Source of the DNA: Sclerodactyla briareus
Taxonomy: Eukaryota > Echinodermata > Holothuroidea > Dendrochirotida > Sclerodactylidae
Reading direction: 5' to 3'
DNA: 64,000 bases
Assembly (NCBI GenBank): GCA_026419785.1
Contig: JAODTK010004777.1
Span: forward strand, 62,001-126,000
The notes beneath the pieces are model-generated. The model made no database searches. It saw only the letters and a list, made by a program, of their open reading frames with translations, and was not told the origin of the DNA. Numbering within the stretch: position 1 is the first letter of the stretch; every line of letters begins with the position of its first letter. This document shows positions 1 to 20,700 of this stretch, piece by piece. A program made the translations under genes and the position numbers.

Positions 1-2870
1 AGATGTTCAATGGCGCAAGGGTGGGGTGCAGGTAAGTTTAATATCTGAAATAGATTGCTAAAGATTAGTCAAGACTGACATTTTTCCTACAACCATGCGG
101 ACGAACCCCAAATGAGTCTAAATCATGCAAACAAAAGACCATATGATCCCGAATACTGGATTTCAACACCTTGCAGAGAACCACTATTAAGACCCACTGG
201 CCTGTAATTACAAGGAAGAGACTGGTTGCCTCTCTGACAAAAGAGAACATTTGCTCTACGCTAATCATCTGGGAGCAACAACTTCTTGCAATGGTTTTAT
301 TGAAAATAATAGCTAATGATTTTAATGAGAAGGGGTGAACTCCGTCCTGGCTTTACCCACTTTTGAGTTTCTGGGCAGTTTCTCCGTATCACATCAGCAC
401 ATACTATATGTACCATACCATAACTACATTACCAACATTATAATGCACACCAACATGAGTCCCCCCCGCAAAAGGAAAAATTATCCAAGTTCTCTGAAAT
501 AATAACCACCAAAATAGTTTTACAGAATGCTAACCATCTCCTAGGGCATGGCTTCTTCGCTCGTTCAACAGACCTACTAGGCCATTGTGTGGACAAACAC
601 AACATATATACATTGAAAACAGGTAGCATGGGAAGGTAGTCATGATCATGAAGCCCCGCACCTAGGCACTGCCCCCAACTTTTTTGAGCTACAGCACTAT
701 TGGTTCTCTAGTTATGTGTCCTTCATGCTGGAAAGGTAACAGTTTACCTTTCGTCCCAACATAGCGGAACAAATTAACAAGACCTCCCAGGGATGTGCAC
801 CTGTTCTGTAGACCCTCTCGACTGAGCAACACATTCCATTAGAGAGGACCTGGACTCCAAGCCAAATTAGCCCTTTTGTGTGGTACAGGGGATTTTCCTC
901 TTTCCTACTGACCTGCTCCATAGTGCCAACTTAGCACAGTAGCTCCCTAACAGAAACAAATTAATGATCTCAAGAAGACTTTAATTTTGGTGAAAACTTG
1001 ATAAGTACCCTCCAATCTGTTTGAAGAAGAGAACTGCTTCGCTGTTTGAACCAAAAGGAAGAAAATTGACCCTCAGATAATTTCACCTCAAATTCCTACA
1101 CGTCCTAAAGTAGCAATTTGAATAAACTGTGAACGAGAGATGAATAGCCACGCAGAATCACAATACACACCCAGCACCTGCTGGGGTAAGCTAAAAAAGA
1201 AAAGAAAAAGAAAAAAGAAGAAACATGCACTACAACAACGTATTGTTGGTAGTTTCCCACGTGGCTGGGAATGAACAAGCAGCAGCTTCGTCACTGAAAG
1301 GCAACGGGGAGGCACCTGGAATTGTGCGGTTCAGTATCCTTTCTTTCAACAGCACGCACCCTCCTCTATATATCATCAGCTGGTGAGGCGGTAAAATGCA
1401 CATATAGTCTGTTAACATAGATGATTTATATGTTGGTGGTACACTGCACTCAATTCTTACAATCATTAATGGCAGGTACCAGTTCCACAAACAATCCTTA
1501 CCATCCTGATATCTAGACTTGTTCCACGAAGCAATCCTTACCATTCATATAGGCAGGTACAGGTCCACAAATCAGGGTCATGATAAATTGCACAGCATAC
1601 TATTTGCCATCCACAGTCGAGTTCTGTACCAGAACACTCCCAAGGATGACAACATATGAGACAGAATGGCCAGCTAGGAATCCGTTTGCCATTGGTCATG
1701 GTGCGGTACAGAACAGCACAAAAAAAAAACATGGGAATGTCGAGCGCATCCTTGCTAGCGTTAGTTTTACACCTCTTCGTCCTTGGTGCTGGGCTAGGTT
1801 CGGCACTCCCAATGTGATAGGATAGGATTTCAGTGTATTTAGTCATACGAGTCTTGATGTGACGAGACAAACAGGAACACTACTGCATTTGCTAAATAAC
1901 TGCCTGGATTGTACTCAGTATGTGTTCACTGGTTTTAAATATGCAAGCAAGACTATACTAGATGTTCGTTGGGCATCCTCTCCAATTATGATGATCAATG
2001 ATGAAAGTCATCGTACAAGATCTGGCAATGGAGATTGTCAATTAACGTTGGAACAGACATATATATGTATATGGTATTTCAATCTCCCTGAAGGCGACTC
2101 CCTCATATCAGTTTAAGCTATCAGCTTACAGGGTCATCACCTTGTCCATTTCTTCTCACTTTCTACTTTCCACTACGTGCATCTCCACTGGTATGGACTG
2201 GATTCCATTTATCTGCAAACTGAGAGAAACACATGAAAGCAAGGTTATGCTAAGGACTGGTCCAGATGAGATAGAATTCTTTGTTGCCTCTTGGCAACAT
2301 ACCCCTGATCTACAGAGCAAATAACATTCCGACTTGTAGACCCAAATTTGACTAAGTATCTTTACTATTCTAAACATTCCTGATGCGTAAGTGATTTCAT
2401 TTCAGGCTCAAGAAGCACTTCTGGTTATTTTCAGTTACAGAACACACTTTGTCAGGCAATTTCTGGGAAACTGCAAATTGTCTTGACTTTGTCACCTAAA
2501 ACTATTCAATAATTCTGCCTAAAATTGTATTTTATTTATCCAAACATTTCATTTATGAAGACTACTGTTAAATGAAAGTTTCTGTCAATATGTGATAAAT
2601 TTTGGACCAGTGAGCTCCCTGGGTGTGTCATTAAAAATGACATTTTTGAGTCATTTAATACTGCTTAGATGCAAAATATGGTTGCCAGCATTTTATACAC
2701 TTCGTAATTGTATCTACATCAACGAGTTGACAAAAATCCATAAATTTCCGGAAAGAATAAAATGCATGACAATTTTCACAGGCAGGTCTATTTCATTTTG
2801 GAATACAACTGACAAAAAATAAACCCATGAAACTGTACCTACTTTCTGTACAGGTAGCAGGCTTACTTTT
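1..2870. other. Unannotated AT-rich DNA, no gene recognised
   Basis: No exon, transposon protein or tandem array is recognisable here. Visible items are a purine-rich stretch around 1190-1225 and a short direct repeat (ggcaggtac...ccacaaa) near 1470 and 1551. Open frames are at most about 110 codons, overlap on both strands and resemble no family I know. TTTATT at about 2884-2889, just past the end, is AATAAA on the minus strand. It could serve as a poly(A) signal for the minus-strand gene further right, but nothing else supports that. Confidence 0.5.
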
Positions 2871-3500: not shown

Positions 3501-5005
3501 TTGACAATGTCTACTAATGGAGTAAAAGTTTTGTTGAAGTGTGACGAAAATTGTGACCACGGGTCCCTAAAAGGTTACGCCACTGAATTAGCCCCATGTT
3601 GGCCATTATTTTCAAGTCTCTTGGACAAGTTGAACTCCCTGCCTGACGGGAGGAGCAAACATTCCCAATCAATAGAAGGGGCCTCGTGAAAAGCCATGCA
3701 TTACAGACCATTTCCTTGACTTCAGTCACGAGTAAACTTTTAGAGCATATTGTTCACTCGCACATAATGACTCATTTTGACACCATAGTAATTCTCACAC
3801 CACAACAGGCACGGGTTTATGGACAAGACATTCCTGTGAAACTCAACTGATTCAGACGTCCCATGATCGCTTTCTCTCTAAACGATAACAAACAGACTGA
3901 TGTCATCATCATGGACTTTTCAAAGGCATTTGACACCGTTCCGCACAACCGGCTCTTCTGAACTCGACCAGTATGGGGTTGATGGCACAATGAATAGGTG
4001 GATATCCTGCTTTCTCACAAACCGCAAACAGCGTGTGGGGTTGTGGGTGGGGAGGTTTTCTCAATGGGCAAGGGTTGACTCTGGTGTTCCGCAAGTACCG
4101 TTTTAGGCCCATTGTTGTTCAACGCCTATATAAATGATTTGCCAGACCACCTACACTCATCTGTTAGGCTGTTTGCTGACGATTGTGTTTCTTTATAGAA
4201 CATTAATTCCATACAAAGACTATGATTCTGCCTACAAAGTGACCTGACTTATAGCAGCCTGGACCAAAACATGGCAAATGAAATTCAATGCTGAAAAATG
4301 CAACGTGCTTCGTATCCCTGCTAGTAGATCCCCTATAGTTTACAACTACACCTTGGGTAGCACCATTCTTAAAGGGGGGGGGGGGGGGGGGACACTGCTG
4401 CGCATACTTACCTTGGTATTGACATACAACATGAACTGAAGTGGAATAATCACATAACCATAATTACCTTGCTGCTAACAAAACAATTGGCTTCGTTCTC
4501 GGAAACCTAAACTCCTGTACTACAGACACCAAAGCAGAGGTTTATAAGACCCTCATCCGTCCAAGCATTGAATACTGTTCCTCTGTTTGGGACCCGTACG
4601 CTGTACAGCTCACTCAGAAGCTTCAAAGGGTTCAGAGACGTGCAGCCAGTATGGTACACAACAACTATGATTGGGACCACAGTACATCTGCCCTTGTTCA
4701 AAACCTTCATTGGGATCATTTGACCACTAGGAGGGAGATTAACAGGCTCTCTACTTTCACAAAGCCATAGGGGGGCACCTGCCATTCCTATTCATGATCA
4801 CCTTCAGCCGCCCAACGAGAACCCGCCGCCCACCTCGACACAATTATATGTGACATCACAACGTCGGGACCTGCTACAAATACTCCTTCATTCCAAGAAC
4901 CACAAGGGACTTGAACAACTGCCACATGAATTACAAGTATTGTTAGCCCAGCGAACTTCAAGCTGCTGTTGAACGACACCTGAGGCTTCAGCATCGGAAC
5001 TAGCA
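3500..5005 (+). pseudogene. Degraded CR1/Jockey-type LINE, reverse transcriptase ORF
   Basis: This is the reverse-transcriptase half of a non-LTR retrotransposon, read on the plus strand across several frames. From 5' to 3' one sees a YRPISLTSV-like segment (about 3700-3760), RT motif A as FSKAFDTVPHNR (about 3917-3952), WISCFLTNRKQRV (4003-4035), SGVPQ followed after a frame change by LGPLLFNAYINDLP (4081-4150), the catalytic FADDCV motif (about 4170-4190), a W..KFNAEKCN segment (4265-4300), and the C-terminal block IRPSIEYCSSVWDP, LQRVQRRAASMV and LTTRRE (4550-4745). Frameshifts, stops and an 18-G run at 4374-4391 disrupt it. The 5' endonuclease is absent, so the copy is 5'-truncated and dead. 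The clade assignment (CR1/Jockey/L2 group) rests on motif style only. Confidence 0.85.
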
Positions 5006-5480: not shown

Positions 5481-7185
5481 GGAGTTATCGTGTTCACAAG
5501 GTTCTCAGACGTTGACCTCTGGTGACCTCAGATGACCTCTGACCTGACCCCAAAACAATAGGGTTCATGTACTCATCATGGGGAACAAACATACCAAGTT
5601 GAGCTCATCATCCAGGTGGGGTCAAGTTATCGTGTTTACAAGCCAAATGGCAAATATCAACTTTTCACAAATTTCTACTTTTTTTTTTTGTTTTTTTTGT
5701 TTCGATCAAAACTCAATCCTGACCTGAACCAAAAACAATAGGGTTCCTATACTCCCCATAAGAAAGCTATACACCTAATTTCAACTTGATCAGACCAACA
5801 ATTATGGACTTATCGTGTTTACAAGGTTTCAGACTTTGACCTCTGGTGACCTCAGATGACCTCTGACCTGACCCCAAAACAATAGGGTTCATGTACTCAT
5901 CATGGGGAACAAACATACAAGTTTGAGCTTCATCCATCCAGGTGGGGTCAAGTTATCGTGTTTACAAGCCAAAATCTGCCAAAATATCAAATTTTCACAA
6001 ATTTTCTATTTTCGATCAAAACTCACTCCTGAACCTGAACAAAAACAATAGGGTTCCTATACTCCCCATAAGAAAGCTATACACCTAATTTCAACTTGAT
6101 CAGACCAACAATTATGGACTTATCGTGTTTACAAGGTTTCCAGACTTGGACCTCTGGAGACCTCAGATGACCTGACCCCAAAACAATAGGGTTCATGTAA
6201 TCATCATGGGGAACACACATACCAAGTATGAGCTTCATCCATCCGGGTGGGGTCAAGTTATCGTGTTTACAAGCCAAAATCTGCCAAAATATCAAATTTT
6301 CACAAATTTTCTATTTTGACCAAAATTGACCCCGACCTGAACCAAAAACAATAGGGTTCCTGTACTCCCCATAAGAAAGCTATACACCTAATTTCAACTT
6401 GATCAGACCAACCATTCTGGACTTGTCGTGTTTACAAGGTTTCAGACTTTGACCTCTGGTGACCTCAGATGACCTCTGACCTGACCCCAAAACAATAGGG
6501 TTCATGTACTTATCATGGGGAACACACACATACCAAGTATGAGCTTCATCCATCCAGGTGGGGTTGAGTTATCGTGTTTACAAGCCAAAATTGGCCAAAA
6601 TATCAAATTTTCACAAATTTCTGTTTTCGACCGAATTCACTCCTGAACTGAACCAAAAACAATAGGGTTCCTGTACTCCCCATAAGAAAGCTATACACCT
6701 AATTTCAACTTGATCAGACAACCATTCTGGACTTATCATGTTTACAAGGTTTTCAGACTTTGACCTTGGTGACCTCAGCGGACCTCTGACCTGATCCAAA
6801 ACAATTAGGGTCATGTACTCATCAGGTGGAAACACACATACCAAGTATGAGCTTCATCCATCCAGTGGGGTTGAGGATCGTTTACAAGCAAAATTGCCAA
6901 AATATCAAATTTTACACCAAATTTTTCTATTTTCGACCAAAATTACACTCCCGACCTGAACCAAAAACAAGAGGGTTCCTGTATCCCCATAAGAAAGCAT
7001 CTACGAATTTCAACTCTGGTGACCTCAGATGACCTTGACCTGAACCAAAAACAATAGGGTTCATGTACTCATTGGGGAACACATATACCAAGTTGAGCCT
7101 GACCTACCCAGACCTGATAAAGTTATCGTGTTACAAGCTGGGCGTCCACACACCACACACACACACACACCCACAACCGTGACGC
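5480..7185 (+). repeat. Tandem array of a ~310-bp satellite, about 5 units
   Basis: Successive copies of cagactttgacctctgg occur near 5505, 5828, 6141, 6444 and 6755, giving spacings of about 302-321 bp. Each unit contains, in order, a TGACCTCTGGTGACCTCAG block, accccaaaacaatagggttc, a catggggaac block, gagcttcatccatcc, ttatcgtgtttacaagcc, a cacaaatttctattttcga block and a second aacaatagggttcctgtact block. Each unit is therefore itself an internally diverged dimer. The last unit is truncated and runs into a (CA)n tract at 7155-7172. All units share one orientation. Related single copies lie near 12.1-12.9, 13.5-14.0 and 19.4-19.7 kb. Confidence 0.9.
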
Positions 7186-11680: not shown

Positions 11681-11782
11681 CTTCTTGAAAGCTAGTAACA
11701 CAGGGTCCTTTGGTAGGACATCCCACTCAAAGTCTTCATGAATCTCCAGCCTCAGTGGCTTAGACTGTATGTGGGCCATAGT
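11681..11782 (-). CDS. MRPL9: MRPL9 homologue exon 5 (C-terminal half, IHEDFEWDVLPKD)
   Basis: The acceptor gaaatttctcctcag-like tract (ctatttctcctcag) precedes ACTATGGCC at 11782, and the exon runs 34 codons to AAGAAG before GTACAT. It is open, phase 0 at both ends and has no indel. TMAHIQSKPLRLEIHEDFEW, then DVLPKDPVLLAFKK, aligns with the MRPL9 segment T(V).(F)L.S..L.(I/V)......W.L.......F.K. The following exon, expected to begin near LGVVVP, was not found between here and the left edge. Confidence 0.75.
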
Positions 11783-14700
11783 CTGAGGAGAAATAGAAAA
11801 AAAGTAAAATACAAACATGTGAGAGTTATGTTTTGCATGGATCTTTGGTCATGTCCTACATAAATGCCGAAATAGTCCTGATTTTCATTGGATCCATCTT
11901 CTGTCTTCACGATCTGAAAATGTAGATTCTTGCCAGTCAGCTCTGAATGGCTGATGACCTCTTGCATTATAGTGGACTTTGAACTTGACTTGATACAAAA
12001 CAGCTTTATTAAAGTCTCCTGAACTATAAAATTACGGAAGTTAAAACACAACCTGAAGTTTTGGGATGGTGCTGTACCTTGACTGAAAAAGTTGATATTT
12101 TGCACCTTGTGGACCTCAGATGGACCTTGCCCTGACCCTGAAACAATAGGATTCATGCAATCCAATGTAAGGGAAACCCACCTTTTACTACATATGAGCT
12201 TTGATCATCCCAGTGGGGTTCGAGTAGTTAATGTGTTAACACAGGCCAAAGTTTATCCATTTTTCACATTTCATCATATTTCTGAAAATGTCCCCTACTA
12301 AATGGCAAAAAAACCATAGGGTTTCTGTACTCACAAGGAGACTGCATTGCCGAATGTTCAGGCCTGATCCGACCAAACATTCTGGACGTCTGCATGTTCA
12401 AATGTTAGCAGACTTGACCTCTGGTGACCTCAGATGACTCTAACTCGACCCAAAACGAACAGGGTCATGTACTCATCAGGGGGCATTTACACATACCAAT
12501 TATGAGCTCCATCCATCAGCTGGGATCGAGGTAGGGTTTACAAGACAAAATTGGCACAAATATTGAATTTTCACTAAGTTTATATTCTAGACTGAAAATT
12601 ACCTTGATCTACACCAGAAACGATACAATTTGAACTCGATCCAACCAACAAATCTGAACTGATGGTGTTTGCAATGCTTTCAGACTTCGCCCTCTGGGGA
12701 CCGCAGATTACTCGGGACCTGACCCACCTGAAATGGAGTACATTGTACTTATCATGGGAAACATACAAGTATGTGCTTCATCATCAAGGGTGGGGTCGAG
12801 TTATAATGTTTACAAGCTGGGCATCACATAAATACACAATACACCCGGGCATGACTGCATAGAATTCCTTGATTTGTCAAGGAATAAAATTACCTCCTGT
12901 GCCAATAGTGATAGCCTCTTCGGACCAGATGCGTCTTGCTGAAGGAAAAGAGGAGAAAAGTTAAGGAGTTATAAAGGATCTTAACAAATACTGCTTACAG
13001 CATTTCTCTCACTCTATGTGTGTCACTCCAATACATAGAATACTAAGGCAAAGTTAGAGGTGAATAATCGTTTTACAAGACATCACACAAGTGCAATACA
13101 TCAAGCCTGTGTTGTGTCCTTTTTGTTTCCTCTCATGGAGAATACGTCATATTCATGAGTTCTGCACTGAGAATTCTAGTTTGTATATTTTTAATACACA
13201 ACTCTAAAGACAATAACCCTTCTGCATCAACAATTCTTTTTCATGCATTTCAGCAGCACCTGTAAAGGTCAAGGGATAACAACAAATATTTCCGAACTAG
13301 CCAAAAAGACAAGAAAGATATGTTAGAACTTCTCACTCGATGGTTTTGATTCTGGTATGTTGCCTTGATGGGTTAAGAAGGTATCAAAATTTCTCGGCCT
13401 CCATATTGTAACCACTCCAGTGATTTCCAGAAGGAAGATGTAATCTTCCCATGGTAGTACTGTGGAATATGATGGAATTGGTGCATCAAATACAACATAC
13501 TCAATGAGCCTACCCATCAAGGTGGGGTAAAATTATTGTGTTTCACCATCCAAAATTCGCCAAAAAATCTTTTTTTTTGCAATTCGCCGATTTTACCCCG
13601 TCCCCCCAAAAAAAGTCACACACTTCACCTGAGCATTAAGCATTTTGGACTCATCTCAATCACAAGGTTTTCTTCACCTCTGTTGACCGCAGAGACCGAC
13701 CCACCCAAAAATGGGATCATATACTCATGGTGGGGAAGCCACCAACCAAGTAGGGTCAGCCAAAATTGGCCCAAATATAAATTACCTTTCAAAATTTTCC
13801 CATGTTCCCCCAAATTTACCCCACAATCCACCAAAAGCATAGGGTTCTTGTACTTCTTATAAGAAAGCTGCTGCCAAGCTTCGGACCCAATTGTGTTCAC
13901 AAGGTTTCCAGATTTAGATCACAGAAGACCTTTGACATGACCTCAGAACAATATGAATCATGCACTCATTATAGGAGCTTTGACCTACCGATATGACATC
14001 ATCAGCATCCTCCAGATATATCTCTAATCCTGTAGATGCATTGTCCTATCCAATTACTAGTCTGGGGATTTTCTTCTCATTGGTATTCAATACAATCAAG
14101 CAGAAATCAACTATTGTAGTGAGTAAGGACTACCTGTAATCGAACAGCTCTCGCCTTCAGATTCCAGGTGAGGCATAATCGCTAGGCCCTCAGGAATCAG
14201 CTTGTCCCGTAGAATTCCCTTTCTTGACAAGCGACTATGTCATTCTTTAAACCAACTCCTGTTCGAAGAAATTAGAAGGTTAAAATTTCTTATGTATTTC
14301 CCATTGAAGGTCCATACCCCCCAAATTAGCAGCAACGTCCCCTCTCCTTCTACTTCCATAGATTCAAATGTGAATTTTCTAATGCCACTCTGTTGTCATT
14401 TCGGTACTGTTTGAGAATTTTGTTGCATCTTCACGGAATAGTGGTGTGTGGCGGTCCATGATATTTGAACAAAAGAACCAACTCTGTTTTTTTGGCACGA
14501 TCGTGCTTCCGTCTTGCTATATCTAGTGCAGGTTTGAATGCCCCTTGCTGGGCTGAGACAATCGATTGGATTGCCCTTAGAGACTCCTCCAGCACACTTC
14601 ACAGCATTCTCAGTTACCACTGACCTATCATGGTTACCCCCAGGGTTCTCAGGTATAGGGGAATGGTGAAGGTTAGCTGGCCTGATTCAATGATCGCCCA

Positions 14701-17700
14701 CTGCAATTTATTGAGGCATATGGCGCACATATGGTGCACCTATTGAGGGACTATCCTGCCACCATGTCCTGCCTGAGAGGGATCCGGCGGGTGGGCCGAC
14801 TGCCGGGACAAGCCCCGTAGTACATGGTTGGTGCAGCTTCAAGGGTAAACCAGTCAGGGAGGTTAGGGGATTGGCCAGGCCCGGCCTGGTACTTTGTCCG
14901 AGGTTGGGTGTTGGGAGCGGGAGATGGATACCGCTAGGCGCCTTCCTGGCATGTTCTCCCAAGCATGAGTGAGTGAGTTCCAACTGTGGGTGGTACCCTT
15001 GTCGAGGGGGGGGGGGGGGGGGGGCGCCAGGAACTACCATCATTATTCTTTGCCAAAATTGCTTAATATTCGTATTAGACTACTATTGACACATAGCAGA
15101 GGTGTAATGCCAAGCGTCGCTAAAGGTTGTCTATGTCATTGGAAGAGGTCATTTGTAGGTTTGATCCCCTTGTGAGTACCCCCTAATGAGAGATTGCTCC
15201 ATAGGATATTTAACCTGGCACCTTCCTCCATCAGTATGACCTTGCAGACTTACCTGGCACGTCTCCAGCAGTATGACCTTGACAGACTTACCTGGCACGT
15301 CCTCCCGCAGTATGACTCTTGGACAGACTTCCTGGACCGTCGCTCAGCATAATGTACCTTTGACAGGCTCACCTGGCACGTCTTCCAGCAGTATGGCCTT
15401 GACAGACTACCTGGCACGTCTTCCAGCAGTAATGACCTTGAACGACCTACTGCCCGTCTTCCAGCAGTATGATCTTGACAGACTTACCTGGCATGTCTTC
15501 CAGCATATGACCTTGACAGACTTACCTGGCAAGTCTTTCAGCAGTAACCTCTGACATACTTACCTGGCATGTTCTTTCCAGCAGTAATGACCTTTACATA
15601 CTTCCTGGCAGGTCGTCCCGCATATGACCTTGCAGACTTACCTGGCACATCTTCCAGCAGCATGAAACCTTGACAGACTTACCTGGCATGTCTTCCAGCA
15701 GTAAATCTCGACAACTTACCTGGCACGTCTTCCAGCAGTATGCTGACAGACTTACCTGGCACTTCTTCCAGCAGTATGACCTCGACAGACTTACCTGGCA
15801 CTCTTCCAGCAGTATGACCTCGACAGGACTTACCATGCACTTCTTCCAGCAGTATGCCACCTTCAACATACTTACCCGGCACGTCTCTAGCAAGTATGAC
15901 CTTGACAAGCTTTATTACCTGGCATACCTTCAGCATAATGACTTGACCGACTTACCCTGGCACATCTTCCAGCCGTCAAAATGACCTCGACAGACTTACC
16001 TGGCAAGTCTTTCAGCAGTATGACCTTTACAGACTCCCTGGCACGTCTTCATCAATATGCCTTGACAGACCTTACCGCACGTCTTCCAGCCATATGACCT
16101 CACAGACTTACCTGGCACGTCCTTCCCGCATATGACCTTGATAGACTTCTTGGCCTTGTGTTGGGTGTCCTCCACAACTCATAGACAAAGTGTTCCTCTA
16201 GGAAGGGTTTGAACCTCAGCCCGGTGTTCTTGACCTTGACTGGGTGCTTCCTCCTGAGTACGACGACACCCTGCAGACAGTAGAGACAAAATAAAGGTCA
16301 GGTAAGGTTTGCTCTTGTGCTGTGCGGTCGGTGGGGGGTGGCGTTGATGATGGGCACTCACTATGCATGCATTACCACGACTGTGCTCAATAAAAGTAGC
16401 ATTATGTCCAGAGAAAACTATTCAGAATGTAGATATAGAGTATTTCCCTTATGCTGAGTTGAACCGTTTAGCAGACACTAGATGGTGCAATGTTCATTTC
16501 AGTTCATTACCAACCGAAATACTAACTGAGCCACCCAAGAGAAGAAGTGCCATAGAAAGCCATTTTAGGGCTCAGCCGAGCAGGACACTCCCTGCATACT
16601 CGGCAGGCAAAAACAATTCAAACATCCTATATGTTATATTCACACAAACATAGAAAAACGGTCGGAAACTAATGATGGAATTGAAGAGAAGAGAAAAGAG
16701 TTATGCTAGGGGCCTAAGAATATATAAATAATCTAAGTACGTCTTAATAATTTAAGTATTCATTGACATATGCTCTAGTAATTTATTTTCAAAAACTGAT
16801 GTTGATGGAGAAGTAACTATTGAATCTGAGAGGGAATTCCACCCTCCTACACAGCTACACTTTGATTACATGAACTCAAGGTGGTCACATGTTTGACTAT
16901 GCTTGCATTTTTTTTCATGTATTAAAGGTGGTGGTGTGCTCACTACAGTATGACAGCATTTAATGACATATTAACACATCAACATATGAGTAGTGGGAGT
17001 GTATGTAGCTGAGTGGTACCATCTGCTTTTGTAGCATACTAAAGGTCCTAGGACTGAATATTGCTGAAAACACTGTCGTGTCTTGTTTTCACTGTACCTC
17101 ACTTTTTTAAATGCAGAAAAGTGGCTGCATTGAATAATCACCCAGGTCCATCTGATGGGGACGTGAACAGGAGCAGGAACCATTCATACCTGCCTTGTTA
17201 AAGCCTGGGTGGGCCTACTGAAGAAGAGAAGGCGGTACTTTGTCTTGGGTGTCCGTCTACACTCAACACTGGTTTACATAATTAACATGTATACACAGAG
17301 GGTGCATAGTAGAGTACAATCACAGTCTACCTGACATAAGTGTTCTCATCACTACATGCAAGCCTGTAGCAAGCAAATTGTTTCAATGATCAATGTCCAT
17401 GGGGCCTGGGGGGAGGGGGACAGAGAGTCCAGGGGCTTAGGGGTTCCTTCAAACCAGAAACTTTCACCCCAGTTTGAACAAATCTTAATTTCAGTAGAAA
17501 ATTGGTTAATTCAACTTATAATTCAACAAGGTCAAACCTCTCTGATCTAAGATCTGCATGGCAAAACCTCACTATGATGGTGGTGGCTGACATAGTAGGC
17601 CAAACTGTTTTTCCCTTTCCTTTTTTAGGTGAGTTCAAGTTGATATTAGCATGAATCTTCCACTTTAGTGCCCCCCATGTGCAGCATTCTAACATTTAGG

Positions 17701-20700
17701 GCTTTACGTGTATTTTCTAATTAAAAAAAGACAAAATACACTAGCGTGAGACAGGAGGTGGGTCCCTACCTATTCTACTATTTCGCACATATTCGAGGGT
17801 GCCTGAATTTATAATGAGAGTGCAGCGTAGCGTAGCGGTAGAGTGGCCGTTTAGTATGTAAAGTCCGGGTTCCATTCCCGGGAATCACAAAAGTTGATAT
17901 CTCCTATCCTGCCTCATTGCAGGAAATGGGCTGCATTTGGAAGGTCACTCAAGGCCGTCGGATGGGACGTAAAACGGCGGTACCGGGAGCAGGAAGATCT
18001 ACGCCTGACCCGTGATAAGTCTGGACACTATTCGAGGAGAGAAGGCGAGTGTTCACCGGTGTCCATCCACGATCACACTGAAGATCAGTGAGACTGTCTA
18101 CTACGTAGACCTCCATCAAATGCCCTTTATGAGGGTGCATTGGAGTATGAACCAGAACCAGAAGCAAGCAAATTGTTTCAATGATCAATGTCCATGGGGC
18201 CTGGGGGGAGGGGGACAGAGAGTCCAGGGGCTTAGGGGTTCCTTCAAACCCAGAAACCTTCCCAGTTTGAACAAATCTTAATTTCAGTAGAAAATTGGTT
18301 AATTTCAACTTATAATTCAACAAGGTCAAACTCTCTGATCTGAGATCTGCATGGCGAAACCTCACTATGATGGTGTTGGCTGACATAGTAGGCCAAACTG
18401 TTTTTCCCTTTCCTTTTTTAGGTGAGTTCAAGTTGATATTAGCATGAATCTTCCACTTTAGTGCCCCCCCCCCACACGCAGCATCTAACATTTAGGGCTT
18501 TACGTGTATTTTCTAATTAAAAAAAGACAAAATACACTAGCGTGAGACAGGAGGCGGGTCCCTACCTATTCTATTATTTTGCACATATTCGAGGGTGCCT
18601 GAATTTATAATGGATACTACATATCACTTACTTCGTTATACATAAACCTATACTACTCAGACTTTTATTCACACACTCCCTGCAAACCCCTCTACTCTCA
18701 CAGCACTGAATAGACAGGCAGGCGAGGCAAACCCCTCTACTCTCACCGCACTGAATAGACAGGCAGCAGAGGCAAACCCCTCTGCTCTCACAGCACTGGA
18801 TAGACAGGCAGGCAGAGGCAAACCCCTCTGCTCTCACAGCACTGGATAGACAGGCAGGCAGAGGCAAACCCCTCTACTCTCACAGCACTGGATAGACAGG
18901 CAGCAGAGGCAAACCCCTCTCTCTCACAGCACTGGATAGACAGGCAGGCAGAGGCCTGCAAACCCCTCTACTCTCACAGCACTGAATAGACAGGCAGGCA
19001 GAGGCCTGCAAACCCCTCTACTCTCACAGCACTGAATAGACAGGCAGGCAGAGGCCTGCAAACCCCTCTACTCTCACAGCACTGAATAACAGGCAGCAGA
19101 GGCAACCCCTCTTCCACTCTCACAAGCGCATTGAAATACAGGCAAGCAGAGGCAAACTCCTCTACTCTCACAACTGGCACTGAATGACCGGCATGCAGAG
19201 GCAAACCCCTCTCCCTCACAGTCACTGATAGACAGGCAGCAGAGGCGAAACCCCTCACTCTCACGTCGCACTGAAGACAGGCGAGGCAGAGCCTGCAGAA
19301 CCTCTCTACTCTCACAAGCACTGAATAGATAGGCAGGCAGAGGCCTGAATCAACGAAGCCTCTTTATCATTTTGCTTGTAAGATGGTGAAACTCAAGACC
19401 TACAAGATTAGTGTCTTTCTTGTCCTCCCGATGGTCATTAACCTCGGGCAAGACCTCTGGACTTGACCTCCAAAGACAATTGGTATCACTATCATGTATG
19501 CATGTATGGGAAACCCATATACGAGGAAAAGTTGTGTCCCTCTATTAGGTCACGTTTTGTACTAACAATGCTAAACAAGCTGAAATCACCAAAATGTTGT
19601 TCACAATTCCCCCTTTTTTAACCAAATATTACCACAGGTAGACAGGCCTACCATACCACCAGCAGACCTAGGGTTCTTATACTCACCCCCTTACTGCATA
19701 CATAGTTTTTTGGCCTAGCTGCTAAGTTTTTAAAGGTTGCTGTGGCGGTGAGAGGCGGTGGGTCCAGGGCTTGCTGGTATGCGATCTAAGGTAGTCGCAG
19801 TGGTTACAAGAATACATACACACTACATACATATACATACCATATTCATTCCCGCTAGCGCGGCCAGGGCGCTTGCAATCAGTTTTTCTGGATGGGCTCG
19901 TTACTAGAGTATTAACTTGTACAAGTGCTTTTGTATCGTTTTTGGTGTATTTTTGCGGGACGAGCTGACACTGTGTGTACGTAGACACACATTCACAATA
20001 GTCGCACGGTTGAAGCAAACAATGTCTTGCTTTTCCAACAAGCAGTGTATCCGCCCCCCTCCGCAACCAACCCCCCTTCCCGATGACTGAAACTCACAGA
20101 AAGCGATCTGTTCATTCAGTGTCAGCCGGTAACATAAACACTAGTTTATATGCCTATCATCTGCACTGTACAGATACACGGCTCAAACTAACCAAGTGGC
20201 CTATGTTTAATAATAACACGAACACATACTGCATGCCACCACGTAACCATTGTCTCGATTTGGCATTGAATACAGAAGCAAAACACGACCTGGAATTTAT
20301 TGTGTCAAGTTGCTGAAATCACATTGCGAAAGCTGCTATTATTGTAATCGTTGTATCAAGTGAAATTGATGATCACTCCTCCATTCATTCATTAAATTGA
20401 GTCACCATAGGTCTACGGGCGAGTCACAGGACACAATATCATTATTGGCTAGCATGCATTCGGCAATTCAGTTTTAATATCATGTTGTTATGATAGTGTA
20501 TGGCTTAGTGCGGCACTCAGCAATGAATCGAGCAATAAGTGCTTGTGCTCCCTGCTGGCAATGCCAAACTCCGAAAATATTTTTGTCAGGCTTTTCGGCC
20601 GCGCATATGACTTTATATTTACAAGAGTGTGCAAAAAAGTTGGGTGGGCGCTTACGGGAGATGGCGCATAGCGTGAAGAATATGGTAATATACATACAAT

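Follow-up and report, generated by a model that had tools for sequence, protein, structure and literature searches.

An apparently mirage-type and probably neutral minisatellite at the exon 2/intron 2 junction of the bL9m (MRPL9) gene of Sclerodactyla briareus

Tandem repeats that span an exon/intron border and carry splice signals are known in amphioxus, where they have been termed mirages (PMC3087553, PMC3902484); mirages have to date been reported from cephalochordates. The described cases include Adh3, with units of 10–72 bp, the globin genes BflGb6 and BflGb9, with units of 150–160 bp, and TnC (as cited), and two further amphioxus loci were reported to be similar (PMC3087553). Many of the units contain AG/GT signals, both 5' and 3' borders are represented, the unit number of BflGb6 differed between two haplotypes (6 and 3), and somatic instability was reported for Adh3 (PMC3087553). 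The amphioxus cases are reported to splice regularly (PMC3087553, PMC3902484). Imperfect repeats of 60 and 108 bp in lancelet PGBD5, with copy numbers of 2–7 and 3–6 that vary with the assembly, abut or overlap splice sites; they were compared to mirages and judged to be real and no obstacle to accurate splicing (PMC3902484). For the potato RdRp gene, intron gain by a tandem duplication that carried splice signals has been described (PMC4974935). Here we describe an array of this type in a stretch of 64,000 nucleotides of the sea cucumber Sclerodactyla briareus (contig JAODTK010004777.1, positions 62,001–126,000; hereafter the window), which belongs to a 319-Mb assembly (GCA_026419785.1). The array lies on the junction between exon 2 and intron 2 of the gene for the mitochondrial ribosomal protein bL9m (MRPL9) and, judged by its anatomy, looks like a mirage-type minisatellite. 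The original prediction had called minisatellites of this sort unusual. Given the published amphioxus mirages, the kind is already known, and it is the MRPL9 example that appears to be new and long; a literature search that paired MRPL9 with amphioxus, minisatellites or mirages gave no mention of MRPL9 in the papers listed.

The minisatellite occupies positions 15213–16148 on the minus strand of the window. Tandem Repeats Finder (TRF) reported a period of 38, 24.0 copies, 77% matches and 11% indels, and wrap-around alignment to the 39-bp unit AAGTCTGTCAAGGTCATACTGCTGGAAGACGTGCCAGGT yielded 24 units that differed, over 936 positions, by 68 substitutions, 28 deleted bases and 28 inserted bases. 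The unit corresponds to the last 37 bases of exon 2 followed by GT, and the array begins within the exon. Its consensus comprises 13 codons, with the translation KSVKVILLEDVPG and without a stop. The exonic part of unit 1 (16112–16148) extends up to the first donor, CAG|GTAAGT, which scored 12.6 bits with a donor weight matrix. With a threshold of 7 bits for donor-like sites, the array contained 19 of them, 18 at unit ends and one out of register, corresponding to a density of 17.4 per kb versus 1.5 per kb outside the array. Exact copies of GGTAAGT numbered 15 in the array and five on each strand in the rest of the window. Of the 9-mer CAGGTAAGT the array held 12 exact copies; outside it, the minus strand had none and the plus strand one. 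The array terminates at CAG|GTTAAATATCC, the last unit being followed by GTTAAA, not GTAAGT. This terminal donor (15209–15217, minus strand), which may be the ancestral one, is weak (3.4 bits), and the sequence beyond the last unit showed no homology to the exon tail or the unit above chance, the donor itself excepted. Adjacent units were slightly more similar to each other (p = 0.08). TRF also gave a period of 234 bp, and a search for higher-order structure found lag-6 identity at the level of chance (p = 0.51). The RNA of the array folded with a z score of −2.06 relative to 20 shuffled sequences, none of which folded as well.

The host gene was assigned by protein matches and splice borders, all on the minus strand. 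Exon 2, 159 nucleotides as assembled with one frame shift, was placed at 16112–16270 (borders ctgcag/GGTGTC and TGCCAG/gtaagt), and exon 3 at 14134–14258 (gaacag/GAGTTG and TTACAG/gtagtc). From sequence comparison, the two exons are assigned to the NH2-terminal part of bL9m. A query made of the window letters as read, fused across the intron and over two frame shifts, gave six PDB matches at E ≤ 0.001, every one of them bL9m or mitochondrial L9 (best E value, 3.7e-10), and matched Pfam Ribosomal_L9_N (PF01281) with 23 bits against a cut-off of 20.7. A variant of the query with three consensus residues inserted in unit 1 scored higher (E value of 1.5e-12, 41.8 bits). Probable exon 4 (45 nucleotides, 12894–12938; cttcag/CAAGAC and CAGGAG/gtaatt) has an open frame and was assigned by reading, and probable exon 5 (102 nucleotides, 11681–11782; cctcag/ACTATG and AAGAAG/gtacat) is also open, with residues that participate in the alignment to human bL9m. 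Exons 2–5 were thus placed in the window, and exon 1 and the COOH-terminal end of the gene were not found. The frame shifts, one in exon 2 and several in exon 3, might be taken to mark a pseudogene. We disfavour this explanation: each shift looks like the loss of one base at a short run, as is to be expected from a noisy assembly more than from decay; exon 5 has an open frame; and no other MRPL9 was found in the assembly. A search of the assembly with the MRPL9 protein gave three matches, all at this locus, and neither a second haplotype nor a further MRPL9 locus was found there. Searching the protein database for MRPL9 yielded no match.

An MRPL9-like gene with an exon 3 acceptor at 14258, as well as amplification of the junction from exon 2 with U1-consensus donors in most units, had been predicted, and all of this was supported, the acceptor position being confirmed. 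The predicted figure of about 23 consensus 5' splice sites calls for revision to the counts given above: the array is real, and it holds 24 units, 15 exact motifs and 19 donor-like sites. Similarly, exon 2 had been described as ending ahead of the array; the junction is as proposed, with the exon end (16112) lying inside the first unit.

The relation of the array to exon 2 is supported by the alignment of the exon tail to the unit, which had a local score of 54 with two mismatches and two single-base gaps, whereas none of 9,675 stretches of 38 nucleotides, sampled at every 13th position on both strands of the rest of the window, exceeded a score of 26. The translated consensus corresponds to the beginning of the L9 domain, and three copies of the consensus unit alone passed the Pfam Ribosomal_L9_N cut-off (35.2 versus 20.7 bits), better than unit 1 as assembled. 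Because exon 2 is conserved to human and other mammalian bL9m and the consensus unit passes the L9 cut-off, the sequence comparison identifies the exon as the source and the array as the copy. The initial event would have been a tandem duplication of the exon 2/intron 2 junction, after which the 39-bp unit would have expanded to about 24 copies by slippage or unequal exchange. Where two units meet, the GT of the donor joins the exon codons AAG TCT and gives CAG/GTAAGT; the consensus AAGT at positions +3 to +6 of the internal donors would thereby come from the duplication itself. If the terminal GTTAAA is ancestral, the first duplication would have created a stronger donor (12.6 bits).

Neither the donors nor the encoded protein showed signs of selection across the units. 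The share of cells kept was 94.0% for the GGTAAGT columns, 90.0% for the remaining non-CpG columns and 70.8% for the two CpG columns, which decay most. The conservation of the donor columns was not significant in a permutation test (p = 0.09; seven random non-CpG columns, 20,000 draws), and the proposal that donors had been specially retained was not supported. Coding constraint on the units was also not detected, with 18 of the 68 substitutions (26%) being synonymous versus 29.5% expected when transitions are weighted double. Assembly noise weakens these tests, as it does the comparisons of unit length and donor phase given below. Given that they show no selection on donors or protein, we favour, with a probability of roughly 80%, the interpretation that the array is a neutral mirage-type minisatellite derived from the exon 2/intron 2 junction, and that the transcript is spliced at the first donor. 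The spliceosome would then use the exon end at 16112, the 23 further copies would be removed together with intron 2, and the internal donors would be by-products without a selected function. A neutral passenger is more likely than a splicing device. The like anatomy of amphioxus genes that splice normally, and the two further arrays that begin at candidate exon donors (see below), also speak for this interpretation.

To place the locus in its genomic setting, we searched the assembly for arrays of three or more motif copies spaced 18–48 bases apart, all counts being lower bounds. Arrays of AGGTAAGT were found at at least five loci, including the MRPL9 locus (at least 10 matches; reversed control, 55), and those of AGGTGAGT on at least 11 contigs (at least 37 matches; reversed control, 21). 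Arrays of the permuted 8-mer GATGAGTA were present on at least eight contigs (at least 30 matches; reversed control, 37), and a genome-wide excess of donor arrays was therefore not supported. Since the permuted 8-mer forms arrays no less often than the donor 8-mer, the existence of donor arrays does not point to a special process. Among 21 sampled stretches of 10 kb, TRF returned 26 rows with 68–93% matches, noisy arrays being usual in this assembly; the consensus contained the donor-like GGGGTGAG in two of the 26 and AGGTAAGT in none. The genome is rich in minisatellites, and the MRPL9 locus is distinguished by its position on a coding junction, not by its motif.

Some of the other arrays also lie close to candidate exons, and two of them, at loci L031 and L036, begin where a candidate exon, recognized by open frame and borders only, has its donor. 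At L031 the exon ends at 1299 with a first donor GTTAGT of 8.4 bits, followed by six donors of 10.3–12.5 bits. At L036, on the minus strand, a 51-bp unit has a first donor of 8.7 bits, followed by eleven sites of 7.2–12.6 bits. Neither candidate exon had a Pfam match, and that of L031 had no PDB match. The L036 array (1152–2069, minus strand; 17 codons per unit) has one frame open for 160 residues, and the same array is present in L039. At L028 the donor array starts about 85 bases into the intron, next to a von Willebrand D-like exon whose match, at 19 bits, falls short of the cut-off of 22.9. L028 also harbors a 21-bp repeat in 20 copies about 10 bases past a candidate donor, with the 39-bp donor array in the next intron (180–596 and 1466–1933). 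For L037, one of the five AGGTAAGT loci, no placement at an exon donor was established. The candidate exon donors of L031, L028 and L036 (8.4, 9.0 and 8.7 bits) are weaker than the best array donors (12.5–12.6 bits), so that accurate splicing would require stronger sites to be passed over.

Three observations weigh against our interpretation. The donor 8-mer is arrayed no more often than the permuted one in the assembly. The idea of an ancestral terminal donor depends on one base, given that GTAAAT in place of GTTAAA would score 9.1 bits. Finally, GGTAAGT is the best-kept window of seven columns, in a tie with TGCCAGG, and the donors may be under weak constraint.

We regard an adaptive origin of the array as unlikely. 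According to this proposal, the duplication was a mutation that improved splicing by converting the weak GTTAAA into a perfect U1 match, CAG/GTAAGT, which favoured the first duplicate; the 13-codon unit kept later donors in frame, leaving the array free to grow into what is now a redundant, length-variable ladder of donors in a housekeeping gene.

A working ladder, in which competing 5' splice sites give rise to bL9m isoforms with 13 additional residues per unit, or in which crowded U1 sites enforce splicing or suppress premature polyadenylation in intron 2, seems quite improbable. The 19 donor-like sites with 12 exact copies of CAGGTAAGT, the stop-free consensus unit and the AATAAA motifs in intron 2 at 15916 and 14712 are consistent with such a role. 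On the other hand, the units as read are exactly 39 bp in only six of 24 cases and a multiple of three in 11 of 24, the phase of the first donor is common to six of the 19 donor-like sites (the first included), and donor conservation is not significant. Any insertion would also land within the conserved L9 domain, and the published mirages splice normally.

Similarly improbable, and marginally more so, is the notion that a few true units were inflated by noisy long reads. The frame shifts seen in both exon 2 and exon 3 fit this explanation, as do the substitutions and indels among units, which show no significant structure between neighbours or at lag 6. On the other hand, some variants recur, A-to-G at unit position 10 being present in five of the 24 units, which suggests distinct units, and noise of the same degree is seen in the other arrays of the assembly, so that it is not particular to this locus. 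Unit divergence may be partly assembly error; given the noise revealed by the frame shifts, differences between units, and perhaps the copy number, are unreliable. Least credible of all is the idea that the array is itself exonic, with the L9 NH2-terminal strand repeated in tandem as coding sequence and the true donor at or near the array end: the consensus unit retains a reading frame and the L9 motif, but in the array as read all three frames are interrupted, the synonymous share indicates no constraint, the terminal donor is weak, and about 300 residues would be added within the L9 domain.

Several further repeats were noted in the window. What is probably intron 1, 5' of exon 2, contains a stretch of about 450 bp duplicated in direct orientation (17368–17816 and 18163–18612; 95.4% identical) and a second minisatellite (18682–19344; period of 50, 14 copies), whose unit lacks a GTAAGT donor. 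A 311-bp tandem array (5481–6998; 4.9 copies) shows 75–79% identity to 12309–12817, between probable exons 4 and 5. An open frame at 4450–4770 had 28 database relatives (best E value, 7.9e-19), one of them annotated with a reverse transcriptase domain (PF00078). Pfam searches with 10 of the 53 open reading frames of the window gave nothing above the cut-off, and Rfam yielded no match in the window and only tRNAs in 14 of the 21 sampled stretches. The COX1 family gave no match in the assembly, and the GC content was 42%.

The MRPL9 array extends a little-studied class of repeat by a long and clean case from a conserved housekeeping gene. Because one exon is followed by as many as 19 donor-like sites, including 12 identical 9-mers, the array constitutes a natural test of 5' splice site choice, and would be a ready-made allelic series if its length differs between individuals. 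It also suggests how such arrays might be born, with exon codons providing the AAGT of the donor. Compared with the known systems, the array resembles mirages in that the repeat spans an exon/intron border, unit 1 being the exon-2 tail plus donor, and in that the units contain a splice signal. It differs from them in gene, in unit size (39 bp versus 10–72 bp for Adh3 and 150–160 bp for the globins) and in that the unit is a whole number of codons, and its 24 units contrast with the 6 and 3 of BflGb6. Lancelet PGBD5 has longer units in fewer copies. The potato RdRp gene and the MRPL9 array both copied splice signals by tandem duplication, but the former duplication is linked to a new intron, whereas the MRPL9 copies sit in an existing one.
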